This document shows, piece by piece, positions 2,478-43,918 of a DNA stretch of 45,809 nt. The stretch spans positions 1 to 45,809 of IMG/VR virus record IMGVR_UViG_3300014497_000282; one strand, given 5' to 3'. A model generated the notes under the pieces. The model was given only the letters and a program-made list of their open reading frames with translations, ran no database searches and was not told the origin of the DNA. Made by a program: the position numbers and the translations under genes. Each line of letters begins with the position of its first letter. Within the stretch, counting starts at the first letter, position 1. Origin of the DNA: a virus.

Positions 2478-3026
2478 ATGACTATTACTCCGCCAGTAAA
2501 GCTCATACTTTCGATGCTTGCCGCGCTGCATGAAAATCTCAACATCGATCCGCAGACTGCGCGGTTCGTTAAAGCAGCGGTTGCGAGCGACAATACTTGG
2601 GCGCTTAGCTGGGAGTTTCCGGAGTTCTTCGGAGAGCAGGTTGAGCCTTTTCCGACAGTAGTGACAGAAGTTTCGAACTATCTTCACATGTGGACGTGTA
2701 TCGAAAAAAGTCTCAAATTTCTACCCATCCAAGAGCGCATCGAAGTTGCCCAATCCGCCAAAGGTCCAACCACCTTTCCAGGCTTTGATAGCGAAAAAGA
2801 AAGCGAGCATTTCAGTTCAGCGCATTTTATTATTACCCACATGCGCCGATTCACGAATTTCAACGCCATCGAACTGGACGCTCACTATCCAACTCTGCCG
2901 CGAATTGAATCAATGTATGCCAATTTCGCAATGCTTCAAATGCAGTGTAACGTTCGGTGCCTAACCAAGGCAGAACTTATTGCAATATTTGATGTGACCA
3001 AAGATACGGGAATTGTCAGGGCCTAG
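2478..3026 (+). CDS. YfbU domain protein
   Basis: 182 residues. The pattern TPPVKLILSMLAALHEN at the start, then VVTEVSNYLHMWTCIEKSL, FPGFDSEKESEHFSSAHFI, RRFTNFNAIELDAHYPTLPR and the closing CLTKAELIAIFD follow the YfbU family order (N-terminal LIL helix, 'ev.dile.y..l..s', 'F.GFD...E......a.f....'). E. coli YfbU is about 164 residues, so this is full length. Its biochemical function is not established. The surrounding DNA is visibly richer in A+T than the structural genes, which fits recent transfer as prophage cargo. A toxin role is sometimes suggested for YfbU, but nothing here proves it. Confidence 0.65.
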   Translation: MTITPPVKLILSMLAALHENLNIDPQTARFVKAAVASDNTWALSWEFPEFFGEQVEPFPTVVTEVSNYLHMWTCIEKSLKFLPIQERIEVAQSAKGPTTFPGFDSEKESEHFSSAHFIITHMRRFTNFNAIELDAHYPTLPRIESMYANFAMLQMQCNVRCLTKAELIAIFDVTKDTGIVRA

Positions 3027-28473: not shown

Positions 28474-29070
28474 CTACTTCAATGGGATGGTGCGATCGGG
28501 GCTCGGCGGTTGGTGCAACCGATCACCCAAATAGTAGAGGCCCCAAAACGTCGCAACGATCAATTGCCAACACAAGAACACCGTCACGAAGACATACAAC
28601 CCCGTGAAATATGCATGTGACGAAGGCGAGAAAATCTCCTTGAGCGACGGCGCAATCGCTCCACCGACGATGGTCAAGAAGATGATCCCCAGGCTCTCTG
28701 CGGTCAGGAACGCAAACATCGAACACAGGAAGCGGCGTCGCGTCAGATCGATCGGAAAACTATGACCATGGACTTGCACATTGAGCCGAGGAGCCGGCGC
28801 CGGCATTACAAAGTCTATGTCCGTCTTATTGAATGTGGCAATTGCCGCAAGGGCGGCAATATAGAAGCCAGGCAAAATTTGCACAAACCCTAGAATTCGG
28901 CTTGAGAGCCCAGAATTGGAAAATATATCAATCTTCGAACGGGAGTCAAGCAATAAAAAGGCAGCCATACTCAAAACCGTCAACACGAGCGGCACATACC
29001 AATCTATCTTTCTCTTGAAAGCATGACGTATGCGCAGGTAATTAAAGGGCCCAAGAAGATGCTCAATCAT
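28474..29070 (-). CDS. Four-TM membrane protein, RexB-like architecture
   Basis: 198 residues, with four hydrophobic segments: about 24-42 (WYVPLVLTVLSMAAFLLL), 57-80 (GFVQILPGFYIAALAAIATF), 112-136 (FAFLTAESLGIIFLTIVGG) and 152-178 (YVFVTVFLCWQLIVATFWGL). A Glu-Ser-Leu-Gly turn within TM3 parallels the Glu-Leu-Gly of lambda RexB TM3 and TM2 has a similar IAAL run; these are comparisons from memory. RexB is 144 residues; this one is longer in the TM2-TM3 loop. It overlaps the preceding soluble gene by 8 bases. The DNA is clearly richer in A+T than its neighbours. It may be a channel-forming exclusion effector. Confidence 0.55.
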   Translation of the reverse strand: MIEHLLGPFNYLRIRHAFKRKIDWYVPLVLTVLSMAAFLLLDSRSKIDIFSNSGLSSRILGFVQILPGFYIAALAAIATFNKTDIDFVMPAPAPRLNVQVHGHSFPIDLTRRRFLCSMFAFLTAESLGIIFLTIVGGAIAPSLKEIFSPSSHAYFTGLYVFVTVFLCWQLIVATFWGLYYLGDRLHQPPSPDRTIPLK

Positions 29071-30022
29071 CGTCAGCCAGCCTTCTTATGTGTTCCAACA
29101 GTTCCGGATGAAAGGCGTCATAAGACGATTTCAGCGGAACACCGAACCTCTTTAACAGCTCTTTTCTAATATATCTCTCTTCAAATCCAGAATCCGAATC
29201 CCATGCGACTCGTTGCTCGGCGCCGGTCGGGCTTTTGAATTTAATTTTCGCCTTGGAAAAGTCGTCCTTCTTGTTCCTCAATATTCGAGTCAACTGCTGC
29301 AGCCGATCCACAACCTTGTCGTATTGCGGATTAACTTTCAAGCGAACAGTACTAGCCGTCTCAATAAAGTAGCGTTCTTCATCGAACCCCTCCTCCACCT
29401 CTCCCTCCGAAATGAGCTCGATGTCGCTGAACGTGCCTCGGTTCAAATCGGCCGCAAAGTCAGCCGATACAACTCCGCGAATTTCAAAATCGTGATGGAT
29501 TTTGAACTGAAGAAGTTTTCCCTGTGCATCAGTGGCGCCATTTGGCGCGTTCTGCAAGAAAATTTGAGGATTTTTCTTACGAGTTCTTCGCAGGAGTTGA
29601 CGAAGAACTACGGCGATGCGACTAGCCCCAAGCCCTTGTGCGCTTTCTAAATACATCTTCGCCGGCATGAGCGGATCAGCAGCAAACCTAATAACTGCAT
29701 GAGCTGAGAACGCGTGACCCTCGTCGACATTCTTATTGATCTCACGGAGCGCTCGGCTCTGGTGATTCCGGAAAATCGGGTCTGCGTGTTCCTTATCCGA
29801 TCGATAAAAGAGAAACGTAGCTTCTAACTCGCTCAATCGACAATCGGATATTCCGAAAACTTGCTTCGCACCTTTGCGATCAAGTTGCCGCTGTTGTGCG
29901 GAAAGCTGACCAATTAGAACGCATGCGTCACGTGCGGTTAACGGAGTTGGACTGGGATGACCGACCGACGAAACGACCATCTTTAGGTCATAGAAGCAAA
30001 TGGTCCGCTCGTTCTTCTTCAC
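29063..30022 (-). CDS. Cytosolic partner of the membrane gene, RexA/KwaB-like candidate
   Basis: 319 residues from the GTG at 30022, chosen because GGAG lies five bases upstream and a promoter ends just before it; the frame is open to 30112, but those residues fall in the promoter. It opens MKKNERTICFYDLKM and contains ATFLFYRSDKEH, DEGHAFSAHAVIRFAADPLM, GLGASRIAVVLRQLLRR, HDFEIRGVVSADFAADL and DFSKAKIKFKSPTGAEQRVA. The order of short beta and alpha elements, with a late 'kakikfks' strand, resembles RexA or KwaB-type proteins (RexA 279 residues, KwaB about 315). No catalytic site is visible. Together with the next gene it forms a soluble-plus-membrane pair. Confidence 0.5.
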   Translation of the reverse strand: MKKNERTICFYDLKMVVSSVGHPSPTPLTARDACVLIGQLSAQQRQLDRKGAKQVFGISDCRLSELEATFLFYRSDKEHADPIFRNHQSRALREINKNVDEGHAFSAHAVIRFAADPLMPAKMYLESAQGLGASRIAVVLRQLLRRTRKKNPQIFLQNAPNGATDAQGKLLQFKIHHDFEIRGVVSADFAADLNRGTFSDIELISEGEVEEGFDEERYFIETASTVRLKVNPQYDKVVDRLQQLTRILRNKKDDFSKAKIKFKSPTGAEQRVAWDSDSGFEERYIRKELLKRFGVPLKSSYDAFHPELLEHIRRLADDD

Positions 30023-30046
30023 GCCGTCTCCGCTTACAAAGCGGAC

Positions 30047-30075
30047 AGTATCTTGGACGTTGCACTTTGTTGCAA
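30047..30075 (-). promoter_or_regulatory. Promoter for the Rex-like pair
   Basis: TTGCAA (30070-30075), a 17-base spacer and GATACT (30047-30052) on the minus strand, each matching four of six consensus positions. It would start transcription about 20 bases before the GTG at 30022. Moderate score, but the spacing is ideal and the location is just where a moron promoter is needed. Confidence 0.5.
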
Positions 30076-30242
30076 CAGTGGGAACCAAGGTATTCAAGGC
30101 GAGCGCATCCATCTAGGGCGGCTCGTCAGACTTTCGCCTGGGAGAAGTTCGGCCAGCGCGGCGGCTGGGGGTGACTGCGATAGGCCAGTGTGTCGTCCTA
30201 TGCGGTGTCGGGCCGCAGGGTATCACATTGGCCTACTTTCGT

Positions 30243-30995: not shown

Positions 30996-31276
30996 TGAAG
31001 CGTGTCTTCCATTGCACGGTCTCGAGCAGCGAGCGTGCCGCGCACGCTGTTGGCGACGCCCTGGATCAGGTCTTTCGTCCCGAGCACCAGCGGCACATAG
31101 TCCATTCGACGGTTCTCGGCGTAGGCCGCGCGGTTCGAGTCCAGCATCCTGGCCAGAGGCTCGACGTGCAGCGCGTTCTGGCTTTGACTCCAAAGCAGAA
31201 CCCACAGGTCGGGGCGAAATTCGACGTGCCCGGCAGCGAGCGCCGGCGTGATATCGGGGGTGTTCACCATGGTCAT
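30992..31276 (-). CDS. Small hypothetical phage protein
   Basis: 94 residues from the ATG at 31276. The segment VEFRPDLWVLLWSQSQNALH then MDYVPLVLGTKDLIQGVANS suggests a small alpha/beta protein. It overlaps both neighbours by four bases, between the primase-helicase and the Q-like gene. Function unknown. Confidence 0.6.
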   Translation of the reverse strand: MTMVNTPDITPALAAGHVEFRPDLWVLLWSQSQNALHVEPLARMLDSNRAAYAENRRMDYVPLVLGTKDLIQGVANSVRGTLAARDRAMEDTLQ

Positions 31277-33078
31277 GGCTGGGGGTCCTGGGTGGAAAAA
31301 TCTACGAAGCGCAGCGGGTGTTGCCGCTGCTGCGTCCGGTACTGCATGGAAGCTGGGTCGAACCAGGTCCACTGCGTGAAGTTCTGGACCTCGCCGTTGC
31401 GCTGCTTTTGCAACTCGAGCTTCCCGTCCGGACTGCCGTCGGCGTCTTCCCCGCCGGCCTGCGATCGATCCTTCTGAGCGCTCCAGACAGAGAAGAGGTT
31501 GTCGGCGCCGTCCGTGATCTTTCCGGAGCCAGCAACCTGCATCTTGTTCGGGGCCTCAGACTCATCGCGCGCCTTGCGCGGGTGCGCCACCAGGTGGACA
31601 TGCACGTCGTAGCGCTTCGCGAAGGCGACCAGCTTGCGGATGGCTTCCTTCTGGAGAGTCATGCCACCAGGGCCGTCTTCGGGCACGTCGGTCATCATCA
31701 GGCTGTCGATGACGAAGTGGGTGCAGCCGTAGCGCTTCGCGGCATAGGTGAACACCTCGAGGAGGCGGTCGAGCTTCGCGGTGCCCTGCAGGTCGAAGAT
31801 CCAATACCGCTCGCGCATCCACTCGCCGACTGCGCGGATGTACTCACGCGATGGTTGTTGCAGACCGGTCGCCTGTTTGATCGAGCGCATGAGCAGTCGA
31901 GCCGGCCGCATCTCCCCGCTGAAGACCACGAAGTGTTCCCCCTGCGCCATCAGGCCAAGCTGCACCTGCGACAGCAGCAGGCTCTTGCCATGACCGTTGA
32001 TGCCGGTCCAGACCGAGACCTCGCCGCCGCGGAACTCGAACCACGGCAGATCCTTGTCGATGTGCAGACAGGAATTTCGGGGCGCGTTCGGGTTCGGATA
32101 GAACAGGGCCTCGGCCTGGGGGATGTAGTTCGCGGCGGTTCGCAGCTCATCCGGGTCCATCGGCTGGGCGCCAACGATCAGGTTCTCGAAGTCGACCCGC
32201 TCCGCGCCCTGCTGCAGGTACTCGTTCGCATCCTTGGCGCCATTCACCATCTGGACCCGCTTGCAGCGCTCAGGGCCGAGGCGCTGGATCACCTCGCGGG
32301 CACCCTTCTCGCCGGCCTCGTCGCAGTCGAAGAAGATCAGGATCTCGCTGAAGCGCTCCAGCCGCTCCCAATCGTTCTCGATCCACTGGTGGTTCCCGGC
32401 GCCAGCGTTCACCGAAAGCGCAGGAATGCCGCACTGGTGCAACGACATCGCGTCGAGCTCACCCTCGGCGATGGCCACGGTGCGGGCCTTCGGGTCGATC
32501 AGGTGCCAACCGAACAGGCACGGCATGCCGCCGGCCTCCTGCCGCATGTCCTTCTTGTCGTCGATGTTACGCGTCTTGCCGTTGATGTATTCCCCGGTCT
32601 CGCTCAGGTACGGGAACAGGGCATAGACCTTGTCGCCGCGCAGTTGCTCGACAACCTTGAATGCCTCGATGGTCTCGACCGTCAAGCCGCGGCCATTGAG
32701 CCAGACGAGCGCCCTGCCCTCGGTTTTGGCCACGGCCTTCCCCTTGGGCTTCGGTGGCATCGTGAACACCTTGCGCTCGCGCTCGGGGAGCGTGTCGCGC
32801 AAGCCGAGGTACTGCTTGATGTCGACCATGGCCTCGGCCAAGGTCTGACCACGCACAGCCGCCCACAAGTCAGGCAGATCGCCGCCTTCACCCGACTGGA
32901 AGTCTTTCCACATCCCGGCCTTGGCGCCCTGCAGACACACCGACAGGCTGGAGCCAGGCTCACCCGTGATGCCGCCGACCTTCAACTCCTTACCCGCCTT
33001 CTTGCCCTGCGGCAGGAGGTAGGCCGCAATGTTGGCGGCGTCGGACGCCATGCGCTGACTGATTTCTCCGATGTTCAC
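31273..33078 (-). CDS. Phage primase-helicase, T7 gp4/Twinkle-like
   Basis: 601 residues. Residues 1-100 are an N-terminal part without the zinc-binding Cys of T7 primase. The TOPRIM domain has EGELDAMSL (Glu205) and FFDCDEAGEKGA (about 249-260). The DnaB-type helicase half has Walker A GINGHGKS (359-366), Walker B HFVIDSLMM and an arginine-finger region near the end. It would unwind and prime DNA at the fork. Translation is coupled to the initiator gene upstream by a four-base overlap. Confidence 0.9.
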   Translation of the reverse strand: MNIGEISQRMASDAANIAAYLLPQGKKAGKELKVGGITGEPGSSLSVCLQGAKAGMWKDFQSGEGGDLPDLWAAVRGQTLAEAMVDIKQYLGLRDTLPERERKVFTMPPKPKGKAVAKTEGRALVWLNGRGLTVETIEAFKVVEQLRGDKVYALFPYLSETGEYINGKTRNIDDKKDMRQEAGGMPCLFGWHLIDPKARTVAIAEGELDAMSLHQCGIPALSVNAGAGNHQWIENDWERLERFSEILIFFDCDEAGEKGAREVIQRLGPERCKRVQMVNGAKDANEYLQQGAERVDFENLIVGAQPMDPDELRTAANYIPQAEALFYPNPNAPRNSCLHIDKDLPWFEFRGGEVSVWTGINGHGKSLLLSQVQLGLMAQGEHFVVFSGEMRPARLLMRSIKQATGLQQPSREYIRAVGEWMRERYWIFDLQGTAKLDRLLEVFTYAAKRYGCTHFVIDSLMMTDVPEDGPGGMTLQKEAIRKLVAFAKRYDVHVHLVAHPRKARDESEAPNKMQVAGSGKITDGADNLFSVWSAQKDRSQAGGEDADGSPDGKLELQKQRNGEVQNFTQWTWFDPASMQYRTQQRQHPLRFVDFSTQDPQP

Positions 33079-33995
33079 GCCATCACCTCGCGATCAACAG
33101 GCAGCCGTTGGCCGTCCCTGAATTTGTTGGCGTTGTGGGCGTAGCACCCCGCGTTCTCGGCCTCGAAGCGGTTGGGGAAGCCAGCAAGTTCGAACCATGC
33201 CGCGGTGCCTGACACCCCCGCCGACGTGCTGCCACAGACCTCCTCGTCCTCCCAGAACCGCTGGTTGAGCCAAGTCGATGCGTGGTGCCGGTACTTGCCG
33301 CCCTCCTTCGTCCATCGGTCGTGTCTGCACCACGTCCGGAGTCCAACGAGCATGGTCTGCCGAAGGTCGGCCGACGGCTTGAGCGCAGCCCATGCCTTCA
33401 TCGCAGCCTTCTTGCCGGTCTTGAGCGGGTACACGCTCCAGAACTCCGGGAAGCCATCCGGTTCGACGGCCTGCACTCCGCTGCCCCCGTCGGGGGTAGG
33501 GGGTGTATTTATTGGTTCAATGACGGATAACTGATGGTTAATTGATGGATTGGGTGCAACTGGTGCACCCCGTTCTGTCGTCATTTGCACCCCGAGCTGT
33601 TGTGGTTTGCACCCCGTGCTGTCGTCGTTTGCACCCCGTGACTCGTGGGGTGCAACTGGTGCACCCCGTTCTGTCGTCATTTGCACCCCGTGCTTTACCG
33701 ACTCGGCACCCATCGCGATGTCGTAGCAAGCAGGCCGCTTGTCTCCGCGCTTGATGTATGCGGCGACGATTGCGGGATCACCAGCCTTGATGGCGCCGGC
33801 TTCTTGGAGCGCGTCGAGCTTGTAGCGGACCGATCGCTCCGAGAGCCCTGTGTCAGCCATCAGCGCCTGCACGCTCGGGAACGCGCCGCGTCCGTCACGG
33901 TCAGCGTAGTTGGCCAAGCAGAGCAGCACATGGCGCGCGGCTTGCTCGGTGACGATCTGCTGCGACAACGCCCAGCTCATTGCCTGAACACTCAT
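33075..33995 (-). CDS. Replication initiator, O-like winged-helix protein
   Basis: 306 residues. Residues 1-75 form a winged helix (LLCLANYADRDGRGAFPSVQ, GLSERSVRYKLDALQEAGAI), as in phage replisome organisers and lambda O-type initiators. A repetitive middle (two copies of GVQMTTERGAPVAP, residues about 104-150) is encoded by a set of DNA iterons. The C-terminal part (FWSVYPLKTGKKAAMKAWAA, WCRHDRWTKEGGKYRHHAST) is the conserved partner-binding region. It precedes the helicase gene, like O before P. Confidence 0.8.
   Translation of the reverse strand: MSVQAMSWALSQQIVTEQAARHVLLCLANYADRDGRGAFPSVQALMADTGLSERSVRYKLDALQEAGAIKAGDPAIVAAYIKRGDKRPACYDIAMGAESVKHGVQMTTERGAPVAPHESRGANDDSTGCKPQQLGVQMTTERGAPVAPNPSINHQLSVIEPINTPPTPDGGSGVQAVEPDGFPEFWSVYPLKTGKKAAMKAWAALKPSADLRQTMLVGLRTWCRHDRWTKEGGKYRHHASTWLNQRFWEDEEVCGSTSAGVSGTAAWFELAGFPNRFEAENAGCYAHNANKFRDGQRLPVDREVMA
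33563..33690 (+). repeat. Six iterons inside the initiator gene, candidate replication origin
   Basis: Six copies of (T/G)TGCACCCCG start at 33563, 33585, 33607, 33629, 33659 and 33681. Spacing is exactly 22 bases except one of 30. Inverted copies (GGGTGCAAC at 33552, GGGGTGCAA at 33647) lie beside them. A 22-base period is about two helical turns, as for iterons bound by an initiator dimer. The same arrangement, an origin inside the initiator gene, is known from lambda O. Confidence 0.7.
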
Positions 33996-38548: not shown

Positions 38549-39076
38549 TCAGGCCCTGGGCTTGCGACTTCGCGCAGCGGGCTTGTTCAGGACGAGCTCA
38601 CGCTGACCGGCTGGTTCGTCTTTCGCCACGAATTCCAGCGTATAGCCAAGGTCCTGAAGGCGCCCCTCGATCTCCAGCAATCGACCATCGATGCCGACAA
38701 GCTCCTGACGAAGGTGCGAGGCCTTGAGTTTTGCATCTTGGGCGCCTCGCTTAGCTTCCTCGACATCGCTCGGGTCAGGGTTGGCCAGCCGGTAGGCGCG
38801 TTCCTTCTTTGCGTCTGGCGTGCCAGCAAAGAAAGCTCTGCTTGCGTCGGCCTGAACTTGGGCGCGTCGCAGCAAGAGTTGCGTGCGCCTCATCTCCAAC
38901 ATCAACGCTTCGGACGCTGCCAAGTCTTCGGACGCGAAGCTCCGTTCCAGCCGTGCGATGAGTTCGCTGTTGAGACTTTTCCCGCTCGCAGTCGCCGCCT
39001 CCTGAATCTTCGCGTGCAGGTTTCTCGGAAGCCGCAACGCGGTCTTCATGTAGTCGTCTTGGTAGGAGGTGGCCAT
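38549..39076 (-). CDS. Arc-type (ribbon-helix-helix) repressor with coiled-coil tail
   Basis: 175 residues from the ATG at 39076. Residues 10-50 (MKTALRLPRNLHAKIQEAAT, SGKSLNSELIARLERSF) match the Arc/MetJ ribbon-helix-helix: a basic beta strand and two helices. The long C-terminal part is helical, Lys/Glu-rich, perhaps for oligomerisation or protein partner binding. It is divergent from a second Arc-like gene, with an inverted repeat in the shared 87 bases. Like Arc of phage P22 it may repress the neighbouring antirepressor-like gene. Confidence 0.75.
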   Translation of the reverse strand: MATSYQDDYMKTALRLPRNLHAKIQEAATASGKSLNSELIARLERSFASEDLAASEALMLEMRRTQLLLRRAQVQADASRAFFAGTPDAKKERAYRLANPDPSDVEEAKRGAQDAKLKASHLRQELVGIDGRLLEIEGRLQDLGYTLEFVAKDEPAGQRELVLNKPAARSRKPRA

Positions 39077-42548: not shown

Positions 42549-42797
42549 ATGCGCTGGGTGACCATCGAGAAGGCGGCCGAAGAAACTGGCCTGCCAGGTA
42601 CGTTCTTCCACGAGCGCACGGGCGCGTCTGGGGTCTGGCCAGAAGGCCCCGTTTGGAAGTGGTTCGACGGCCGCAAGCTCGTCGACCTCGATGCGCTGTA
42701 CGAACTGATCGACAAGCGCCCCAGCATCCAGAGCAACCGAGGCCGCAAACGCGAGCAACCGACATGCCAAGACCAACGCAGCCCGCAACCGGCGTAA
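42549..42797 (+). CDS. xis: Excisionase
   Basis: 82 residues, with the ribosome-binding site GGAGGAG just upstream. The motif MRWVTIEKAAEETGLPGTFF and VWPEGPVWKWFDGRKLVDLD is the phage excisionase / winged-helix pattern of the MerR-like DUF6283/Xis families. It overlaps the integrase start, so both are made from one message. Xis would bend DNA at the attachment site and drive excision. Confidence 0.8.
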   Translation: MRWVTIEKAAEETGLPGTFFHERTGASGVWPEGPVWKWFDGRKLVDLDALYELIDKRPSIQSNRGRKREQPTCQDQRSPQPA

Positions 42798-43918
42798 TCG
42801 TCCGCGACGCCCATCTGCAGATCGACCTGCGCCGCCACGGGTACGGCAAGGAGCGGCTGCAGCTGGCACCCACGCCGGCGAACATCCGCTATGCGGAGAA
42901 GCTGCGGAACGAGATCCTGGGGAAGATCGAGCGGGGCACCTTCGCCCTGTCCGAGTACTTCCCGGACAGCCCGCGCGCCAAGGCCGACGCTCCCAGCATG
43001 ACCTTCGCCGAGGTGGCGGCCGAGTGGATGACGGTGAAGCGGCCGACGGTGCAGCACAGCACCGCGCACCACTACGACCAGACGATCGGCAGCCTCCACT
43101 TCGCCAGCATCCGGGACAAGCGCATGGCCGATCTGGATTACCGCGCGGTGATGTCGCTGCAGGCGGCGCTGCCTGCGCACCCGAAGACATTCAACAACGT
43201 CGCGTCCGTCATGCGGCAGATCCTGCAGTACGCCTTCAAGGCGAAGCTGATCCGCGAGCCGCTGCACGAGCACGTTGAGATGCGCAAGTCCCAGCACCCT
43301 GGGCCCGACCCGTTCACGCTCGCAGAGACCGAGGCGCTGCTCGCGAGGATCAAGAGCGACCGGGGCCGCAACTACTACGAGTTCGCTTTTTTTACTGGCC
43401 TGCGCCCGTCGGAGCAGATCGCGCTGACCTGGGGGAACATTGACCTGGTGGCCGGCACCATGAAGGTCGACACCGCCCTCACCCGTGGGAAGGAGAAAGG
43501 CACCAAGACCGGCAGCGTGCGCCAGGTGGAGCTGACGGGCCGCGCGCGCCAGGCGCTTGAGCGGCAGCGCGCGATCACGCAGCTCGCCGGCAAGCGGGTT
43601 TTCTGGAGCGAGGCGGGCGAGCCCTTCACGTCGACCTATGGGCCGCTGAATGAGTGGTGGAAGCCCGCCATGAAGCTGTCAGGCATGCGGCACCGCGACG
43701 CCCGGCAGACGCGCCACACCTTCGCGACCGTGTGCCTGCTGGCCGGCATCAAGCCCGGCTGGGTAGCCCAGCAACTCGGCCACGCGCTCGAGATGTTTTT
43801 CCGGGTCTATAGTAGGTGGATCGAAGGGGCCGATCAAGGAGCCGAGCGGCGCAAGCTCGATGCGTTCATCAGCAGCCCGAAAACCGGGACCAAAACCGGG
43901 ACAGAAAGGACGAAATAG
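42764..43918 (+). CDS. int: Tyrosine integrase
   Basis: 384 residues from the ATG at 42764. Catalytic set: Arg214 in TGLRPSEQ, Arg317 in TRHTF (the usual box II HxxR is RxxR here), His340 in LGHALEMFF and Tyr349 in RVYSRW. Residues 8-55 form the arm-binding domain; 78-170 the core-binding domain. It ends 73 bases before a tRNA-3'-end-like att site, as is normal for P2/lambda-type integrases that recombine in tRNA genes. Confidence 0.9.
   Translation: MPRPTQPATGVIVRDAHLQIDLRRHGYGKERLQLAPTPANIRYAEKLRNEILGKIERGTFALSEYFPDSPRAKADAPSMTFAEVAAEWMTVKRPTVQHSTAHHYDQTIGSLHFASIRDKRMADLDYRAVMSLQAALPAHPKTFNNVASVMRQILQYAFKAKLIREPLHEHVEMRKSQHPGPDPFTLAETEALLARIKSDRGRNYYEFAFFTGLRPSEQIALTWGNIDLVAGTMKVDTALTRGKEKGTKTGSVRQVELTGRARQALERQRAITQLAGKRVFWSEAGEPFTSTYGPLNEWWKPAMKLSGMRHRDARQTRHTFATVCLLAGIKPGWVAQQLGHALEMFFRVYSRWIEGADQGAERRKLDAFISSPKTGTKTGTERTK

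Follow-up and report, generated by a model that had tools for sequence, protein, structure and literature searches.

A temperate tailed phage with a very probable lambda-type replication origin in its initiator gene

The iterons of phage lambda are inverted repeats bound by dimers of the O protein, and transcription helps to fire ori-lambda. This origin occupies the centre of gene O and consists of iterons and an A+T-rich tract which is opened upon O binding (PMC7466680, PMC5043065). The origin oriL of Bacillus phage SPP1 is also located inside a gene, gene 38 (PMC6316719). Lambda-type origins with six iterons are present in the Stx phages P27 and 933W.

The locus described here was found in a 45,809-bp stretch of viral DNA, referred to below as the window. 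As in lambda, the central part of the initiator gene contains iterons about 20-24 bp apart and in several reading frames, with an A+T-rich tract after them. The gene directly downstream serves the helicase, encoding a helicase loader in lambda and a primase-helicase in the window. The two differ in that the window has GGGGTGCA half-sites with two dyads where lambda has palindromes of 18-19 bp, in that the DNA-binding domain is HTH_36 rather than Phage_rep_O, and in that the window encodes its own primase-helicase while lambda uses the P loader and host DnaB. With SPP1 oriL and gp38 the locus shares direct repeats and an A+T-rich DNA-unwinding element (DUE) within the gene of the origin-binding protein, together with a phage-encoded helicase. 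SPP1, however, has a separate loader (gp39) and a DnaB-family helicase (gp40), and it has a second origin, oriR, whereas a single array was found in the window. The initiators of Pseudomonas phages JBD68 and vB_Pae_U2 are 63% identical in the N-domain and have GGGGTGCA/GGGTGCAA iterons in the gene, but they are without the C-terminal tail described below and are followed by genes for a DnaC-like loader and a DnaB-like helicase. Iteron plasmids (RepA/RepE/TrfA/pi) also have direct iterons on one DNA face and an A+T-rich region, but their iterons are usually outside the rep gene and the initiator of the window has no Rep_3-type match. In the open literature covered by the search, no description of the GGGGTGCA iteron family was found.

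Initiator gene and iteron array

The window is the whole of an IMG/VR virus record. It has genes for terminase, portal, major head, tape-measure and integrase and is therefore a temperate tailed phage. A low-GC island (~49% compared to ~64%) lies at 28474-30112 between the packaging and replication genes, and two adjacent genes in it match the PADLOC candidate defence pair PDC-M53A (E=5e-79) and PDC-M53B (E=3e-69). A YfbU-domain gene (2478-3026, E=2e-9), which is probably cargo, lies close to the left end, where the GC content is low. An Arc/RHH protein encoded at 38549-39076, in the same phage as the integrase, matches partition-annotated PHROGs. The genes and protein domains considered here are as follows.

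42764-43918: integrase
33075-33995, minus strand: replication initiator gene, 306 aa, with HTH_36 winged helix, iteron-coded linker, C-terminal domain and C-terminal tail
33717-33995, minus strand: winged-helix DNA-binding domain, residues 1-93 (AlphaFold2 pLDDT mostly 85-96)
33798-33839, minus strand: recognition helix, residues 53-66
33480-33692, minus strand: iteron-coded linker, residues 102-172, predicted disordered (pLDDT <50 nearly throughout)
33321-33458, minus strand: C-terminal helical domain, residues ~180-225 (pLDDT ~90)
33105-33203, minus strand: C-terminal tail WFELAGFPNRFEAENAGCYAHNANKFRDGQR, 34 residues, candidate helicase-docking element (tail HMM match E=5e-17)
31273-33078, minus strand: primase-helicase (Toprim and DnaB/RecA-like), the gene after the initiator, presumed to be the replicative helicase brought to the origin (phrog_239 DNA primase/helicase, E=4e-109)

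The initiator matched Pfam HTH_36 (E=1e-8), besides which there was just a sub-threshold RP-C match. No match to the Pfam model Phage_rep_O (PF04492) was obtained, and the Rep_3-type winged-helix pair of iteron plasmid Rep proteins was absent among its Pfam matches. Its PHROG matches were the replication initiation proteins phrog_1032 (E=8e-37) and phrog_270 (E=3e-31) and the O-like phrog_678 (E=2.5e-16). An AlphaFold2 model was built with 21 aligned sequences. The winged-helix domain of the model has helices at residues 3-11, 18-30, 42-49 and 53-66, and short helices are present near the C-terminal end. A structure search with the full model gave generic winged-helix proteins only, none at E<=0.001, and no sequence relative of the initiator was found in the PDB. 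The primase-helicase has Toprim_2 and AAA_25 Pfam domains, so that a Toprim domain and a DnaB-like ATPase are contained within a single chain.

The original prediction was of six (T/G)TGCACCCCG repeats at 33563, 33585, 33607, 33629, 33659 and 33681, spaced by 22 bp, with inverted neighbours and lying between the winged helix and the C-terminal part. An exact match was present at all six positions. The 22-bp spacing held for four of the five intervals and failed for one, the actual spacings being 22, 22, 22, 30 and 22 bp. The inverted neighbours, which had been mentioned but left uncounted, are an exact copy and a 7-base copy. The AlphaFold model places the sites between residues 1-93 and residue ~180, and the encoded peptide block GVQMTTERGAPVAP occurs twice as claimed. 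The observation was confirmed, with the sites slightly undercounted. The elements are listed in the direction of the gene.

33682-33689, minus strand: iteron 1, GGGGTGCA, codon phase 0
33660-33667, minus strand: iteron 2, codon phase 1, arm of dyad 33647-33667
33647-33654, plus strand: inverted exact iteron, other arm of dyad 33647-33667
33630-33637, minus strand: iteron 3, codon phase 1
33608-33615, minus strand: iteron 4, codon phase 2
33586-33593, minus strand: iteron 5, codon phase 0
33564-33571, minus strand: iteron 6, codon phase 1, final direct site ahead of the A+T-rich stretch, arm of dyad 33552-33571
33552-33558, plus strand: inverted partial iteron GGGTGCA, 7 bases
33504-33551, no strand: A+T-rich stretch, presumed DNA-unwinding element (base composition; directly after the array)

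Single iteron half-sites are asymmetric, and the two dyads of ~20 bp (GGGGTGCAACTGGTGCACCCC and GGGTGCAACTGGTGCACCCC, in the order listed) each combine a direct and an inverted site. Eight copies of GGGGTGCA occur in the 45.8-kb window, seven of them within the 126-bp array, compared to 1.9 expected per window from dinucleotide shuffles. None of 200 Markov-1 simulated windows had as many as six copies of a single 8-mer inside 150 bp (simulated maximum 4). The array was the only one found in the window.

The GC content falls to 38% at 33500-33549 from ~63% around it, and the best 40-mer after the last iteron is 70% AT against a background of 35%. The window has the repeats inside the initiator coding sequence, an adjacent A+T-rich tract and an adjacent helicase or helicase-loader gene. 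The predicted likeness to lambda in the placement of the origin was upheld by running the annotated ori-lambda as a control, with matching anatomy: four annotated iterons with spacings of 20, 24 and 23 bp in phases 0, 2, 2 and 1, then a 78% AT tract. GC skew in the window gave no origin signal, with no switch at 33.5 kb. No consensus sigma-70 promoter was found upstream, so transcription of the kind that helps fire ori-lambda is only assumed.

Conservation of the array in the initiator family

The family comprised 133 distinct members from viral contigs, bacterial genomes and named phages, reduced to a non-redundant set of 72 at 90% DNA identity. The linkers of these 72 relatives contained 361 exact GGGGTGCA sites compared to 12.0 (sd 3.3) expected under synonymous recoding, in which the same peptides were encoded with each gene's own codon usage over 500 rounds (maximum 21 sites). 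In the first set of 52 distinct proteins the site density was ~5.0/kb in the gene compared to 0.015/kb in the flanks, and the commonest spacing by far was 22 bp. The extended iteron consensus across the family is aaCGGGGTGCA. In 66 of 70 relatives, the best 40-mer directly 3' of the last iteron ranked among the top 5% of the surrounding sequence in AT. Over 70 members the mean AT was 58.5% in the bin that lies 25-49 bp beyond the first base of the last iteron and ~39% elsewhere.

Recognition helices of the S-x-R-T-V-x-Y/S/L-K-L type (e.g., SERTVRYKL) go with GGGGTGCA iterons. In a SESTIRRKL side clade (L089, L147, L150, L151, L152 and L164) the iterons are changed to GGGGTGTCA in several frames with the 22-bp spacing kept, which appears to be a natural specificity swap. 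In a Phage_rep_O group beside the same helicase, L199 has GGGGTGACC and L202 has GGGGTTACC, and the helices are different. The co-variation comes essentially from one clade plus L199 versus L202, few independent events, and is therefore supportive and not statistical. The initiator itself is probably the binding partner of the iterons. Helices ending in VQAKL, VQTKL or VQNKL (L038, L039, L046 and L052) were found with mixed arrays in which GGGGTGAA-type sites occur among GGGGTGCA sites, possibly an intermediate specificity. A Phage_rep_O-type initiator (L208, 2762-4004) has a duplicated iteron block, with 10-14 GGGGTTACCGA-like words in a single gene.

Function of the array

The encoded peptide repeats had been proposed to be a by-product of a DNA signal. 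This was supported by the sites lying in three frames and by the ~30-fold excess over synonymous recoding in the 72 relatives, and the signal of the array resides in the DNA and not in the protein. The six direct sites are in codon phases 0, 1, 1, 2, 0 and 1, and one DNA word reads GVQ, TGC and RGA. A low-complexity linker expanded through tandem duplication, with no role for the DNA, would fit the predicted disorder and the one duplicated block that is visible (GVQMTTERGAPVAP, ~47 bp, 98% identical DNA). Such an origin of the repeats is nevertheless extremely improbable, as the 22-bp period is not divisible by 3 and the inverted copies encode different residues, and it was rejected on the reading frames and the synonymous-recoding test.

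It is very unlikely that the array serves as an operator, for the initiator itself or for a different phage regulator, in place of an origin. Iteron-binding initiators often also act as repressors, and the phage encodes an S24 repressor and an Arc-type protein. The array, however, is deep in a coding region with no consensus promoter nearby, its sites are confined to the initiator gene with almost none in the flanks, they co-vary with the initiator's own recognition helix, and an A+T-rich stretch comes after them. Slighter still is the chance that an RHH protein binds the array as a partition (centromere-like) site or for incompatibility. Centromeres can consist of short repeats and the RHH protein noted above has its partition-annotated matches, but the array is kept in many relatives and tracks the initiator N-domain, and the integrase points to an integrating prophage.

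The array is very likely the replication origin of the phage, built like ori-lambda, at which the initiator would bind, open the A+T-rich stretch and recruit the primase-helicase. The original prediction of an origin inside the initiator gene is supported by the excess of sites in the linkers, the A+T-rich stretch in nearly all relatives, the co-variation of helix and site, and the ori-lambda-like anatomy. Also in favour of this reading are the helicase or loader gene that comes next in most relatives, the predicted disorder of the linker and the domain swaps joined at the origin. Points against it are the asymmetry of the half-sites, the missing GC-skew switch, the lack of a consensus promoter upstream and a DNA-binding domain other than Phage_rep_O. 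The N-terminal winged helix would bind the GGGGTGCA iterons, which would lie on the same DNA face since 22 bp is about two helical turns, and fold them into a nucleoprotein complex. This complex would strain and open the A+T-rich stretch, and the C-terminal domain and tail would bring the phage's own primase-helicase onto the opened strands for firing. The linker peptide (GVQMTTERGAPVAP etc.) would be unstructured, a by-product of keeping the DNA sites. By mechanism this would be a lambda-type origin although the DNA-binding domain is HTH_36 and not Phage_rep_O.

Mosaic initiators and the C-terminal tail

The window and relative L001 are 70% identical in the N-domain and have the iteron word in common, with no detectable similarity in the C-terminal part. 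The window and L180 are 46% identical in the C-terminal part, with no detectable N-domain similarity and different iterons (TCGGGCA). L147 and L089 have 78% of the N-domain in common, and also the variant iteron, but their C-terminal parts are not shared. Of the next genes in the family, 38 encode a P-like loader, 22 a DnaC-like loader, 4 a window-type primase-helicase and 8 another or unassigned product. The C-terminal part alone as query recovered one relative, L177, so the downstream helicase was used to fetch loci. Among these L199, which matches PF04492, has a C-terminal part related to that of the window. From these patterns of sharing and the types of next gene, iteron arrays travel with the DNA-binding domain and the C-terminal part with the helicase system.

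The C-terminal tail, which no Pfam model covers, was present in all four family initiators beside a primase-helicase and in none of the 68 others. The tail HMM was partly built from the same sequences and the four members are related, so that the 4/4 is not independent while the absence elsewhere is. The tail was also present in most other loci fetched by the window-type helicase, whatever their N-domain. Four named phages with helicases ~40-42% identical to that of the window have initiators without it. A tail universal for phrog_239 helicases was consequently rejected, and the association is claimed only for helicases in the clade near that of the window. Three of these four have another ending, PFxPPRGYxxExHEFWH-like in L210 and L213 and looser in L212; these initiators belong to named Pseudomonas phages (L210 1105-2004, L212 1156-2004 and L213 886-1992). 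This points to a separate initiator tail for each helicase clade, and in the simplest reading the tail may be a docking element specific to a helicase clade.

This kind of origin is already textbook knowledge, to which the family with its iteron word, the modularity and the tail add usefully. What is new is that the initiators, judged from their sequences, are mosaics joined at the origin. Evenly balanced for and against is the fuller proposal of exchangeable cassettes joined there, a winged helix with matching iterons and a C-terminal domain with a tail matched to the helicase clade, in which the tail WWxxAGFxxxxEAxNxxCxxxNxxxFRDGxR docks the phage primase-helicase directly, with no need for a loader of the P or DnaC type.

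The arrangement of initiator and origin is known, yet a large unstudied family retains it, and it illustrates how the starter protein, the start site and the unwinding engine are exchanged as parts. In a large group of prophages of Pseudomonas and Burkholderiales the initiators mostly bear the annotation 'hypothetical' or just 'replication initiation protein', and for these prophages the origin can now be called with confidence, together with its binding-site sequence and unwinding element. The natural swaps open two testable questions, namely which residues read each iteron and which feature of the initiator chooses the helicase system.
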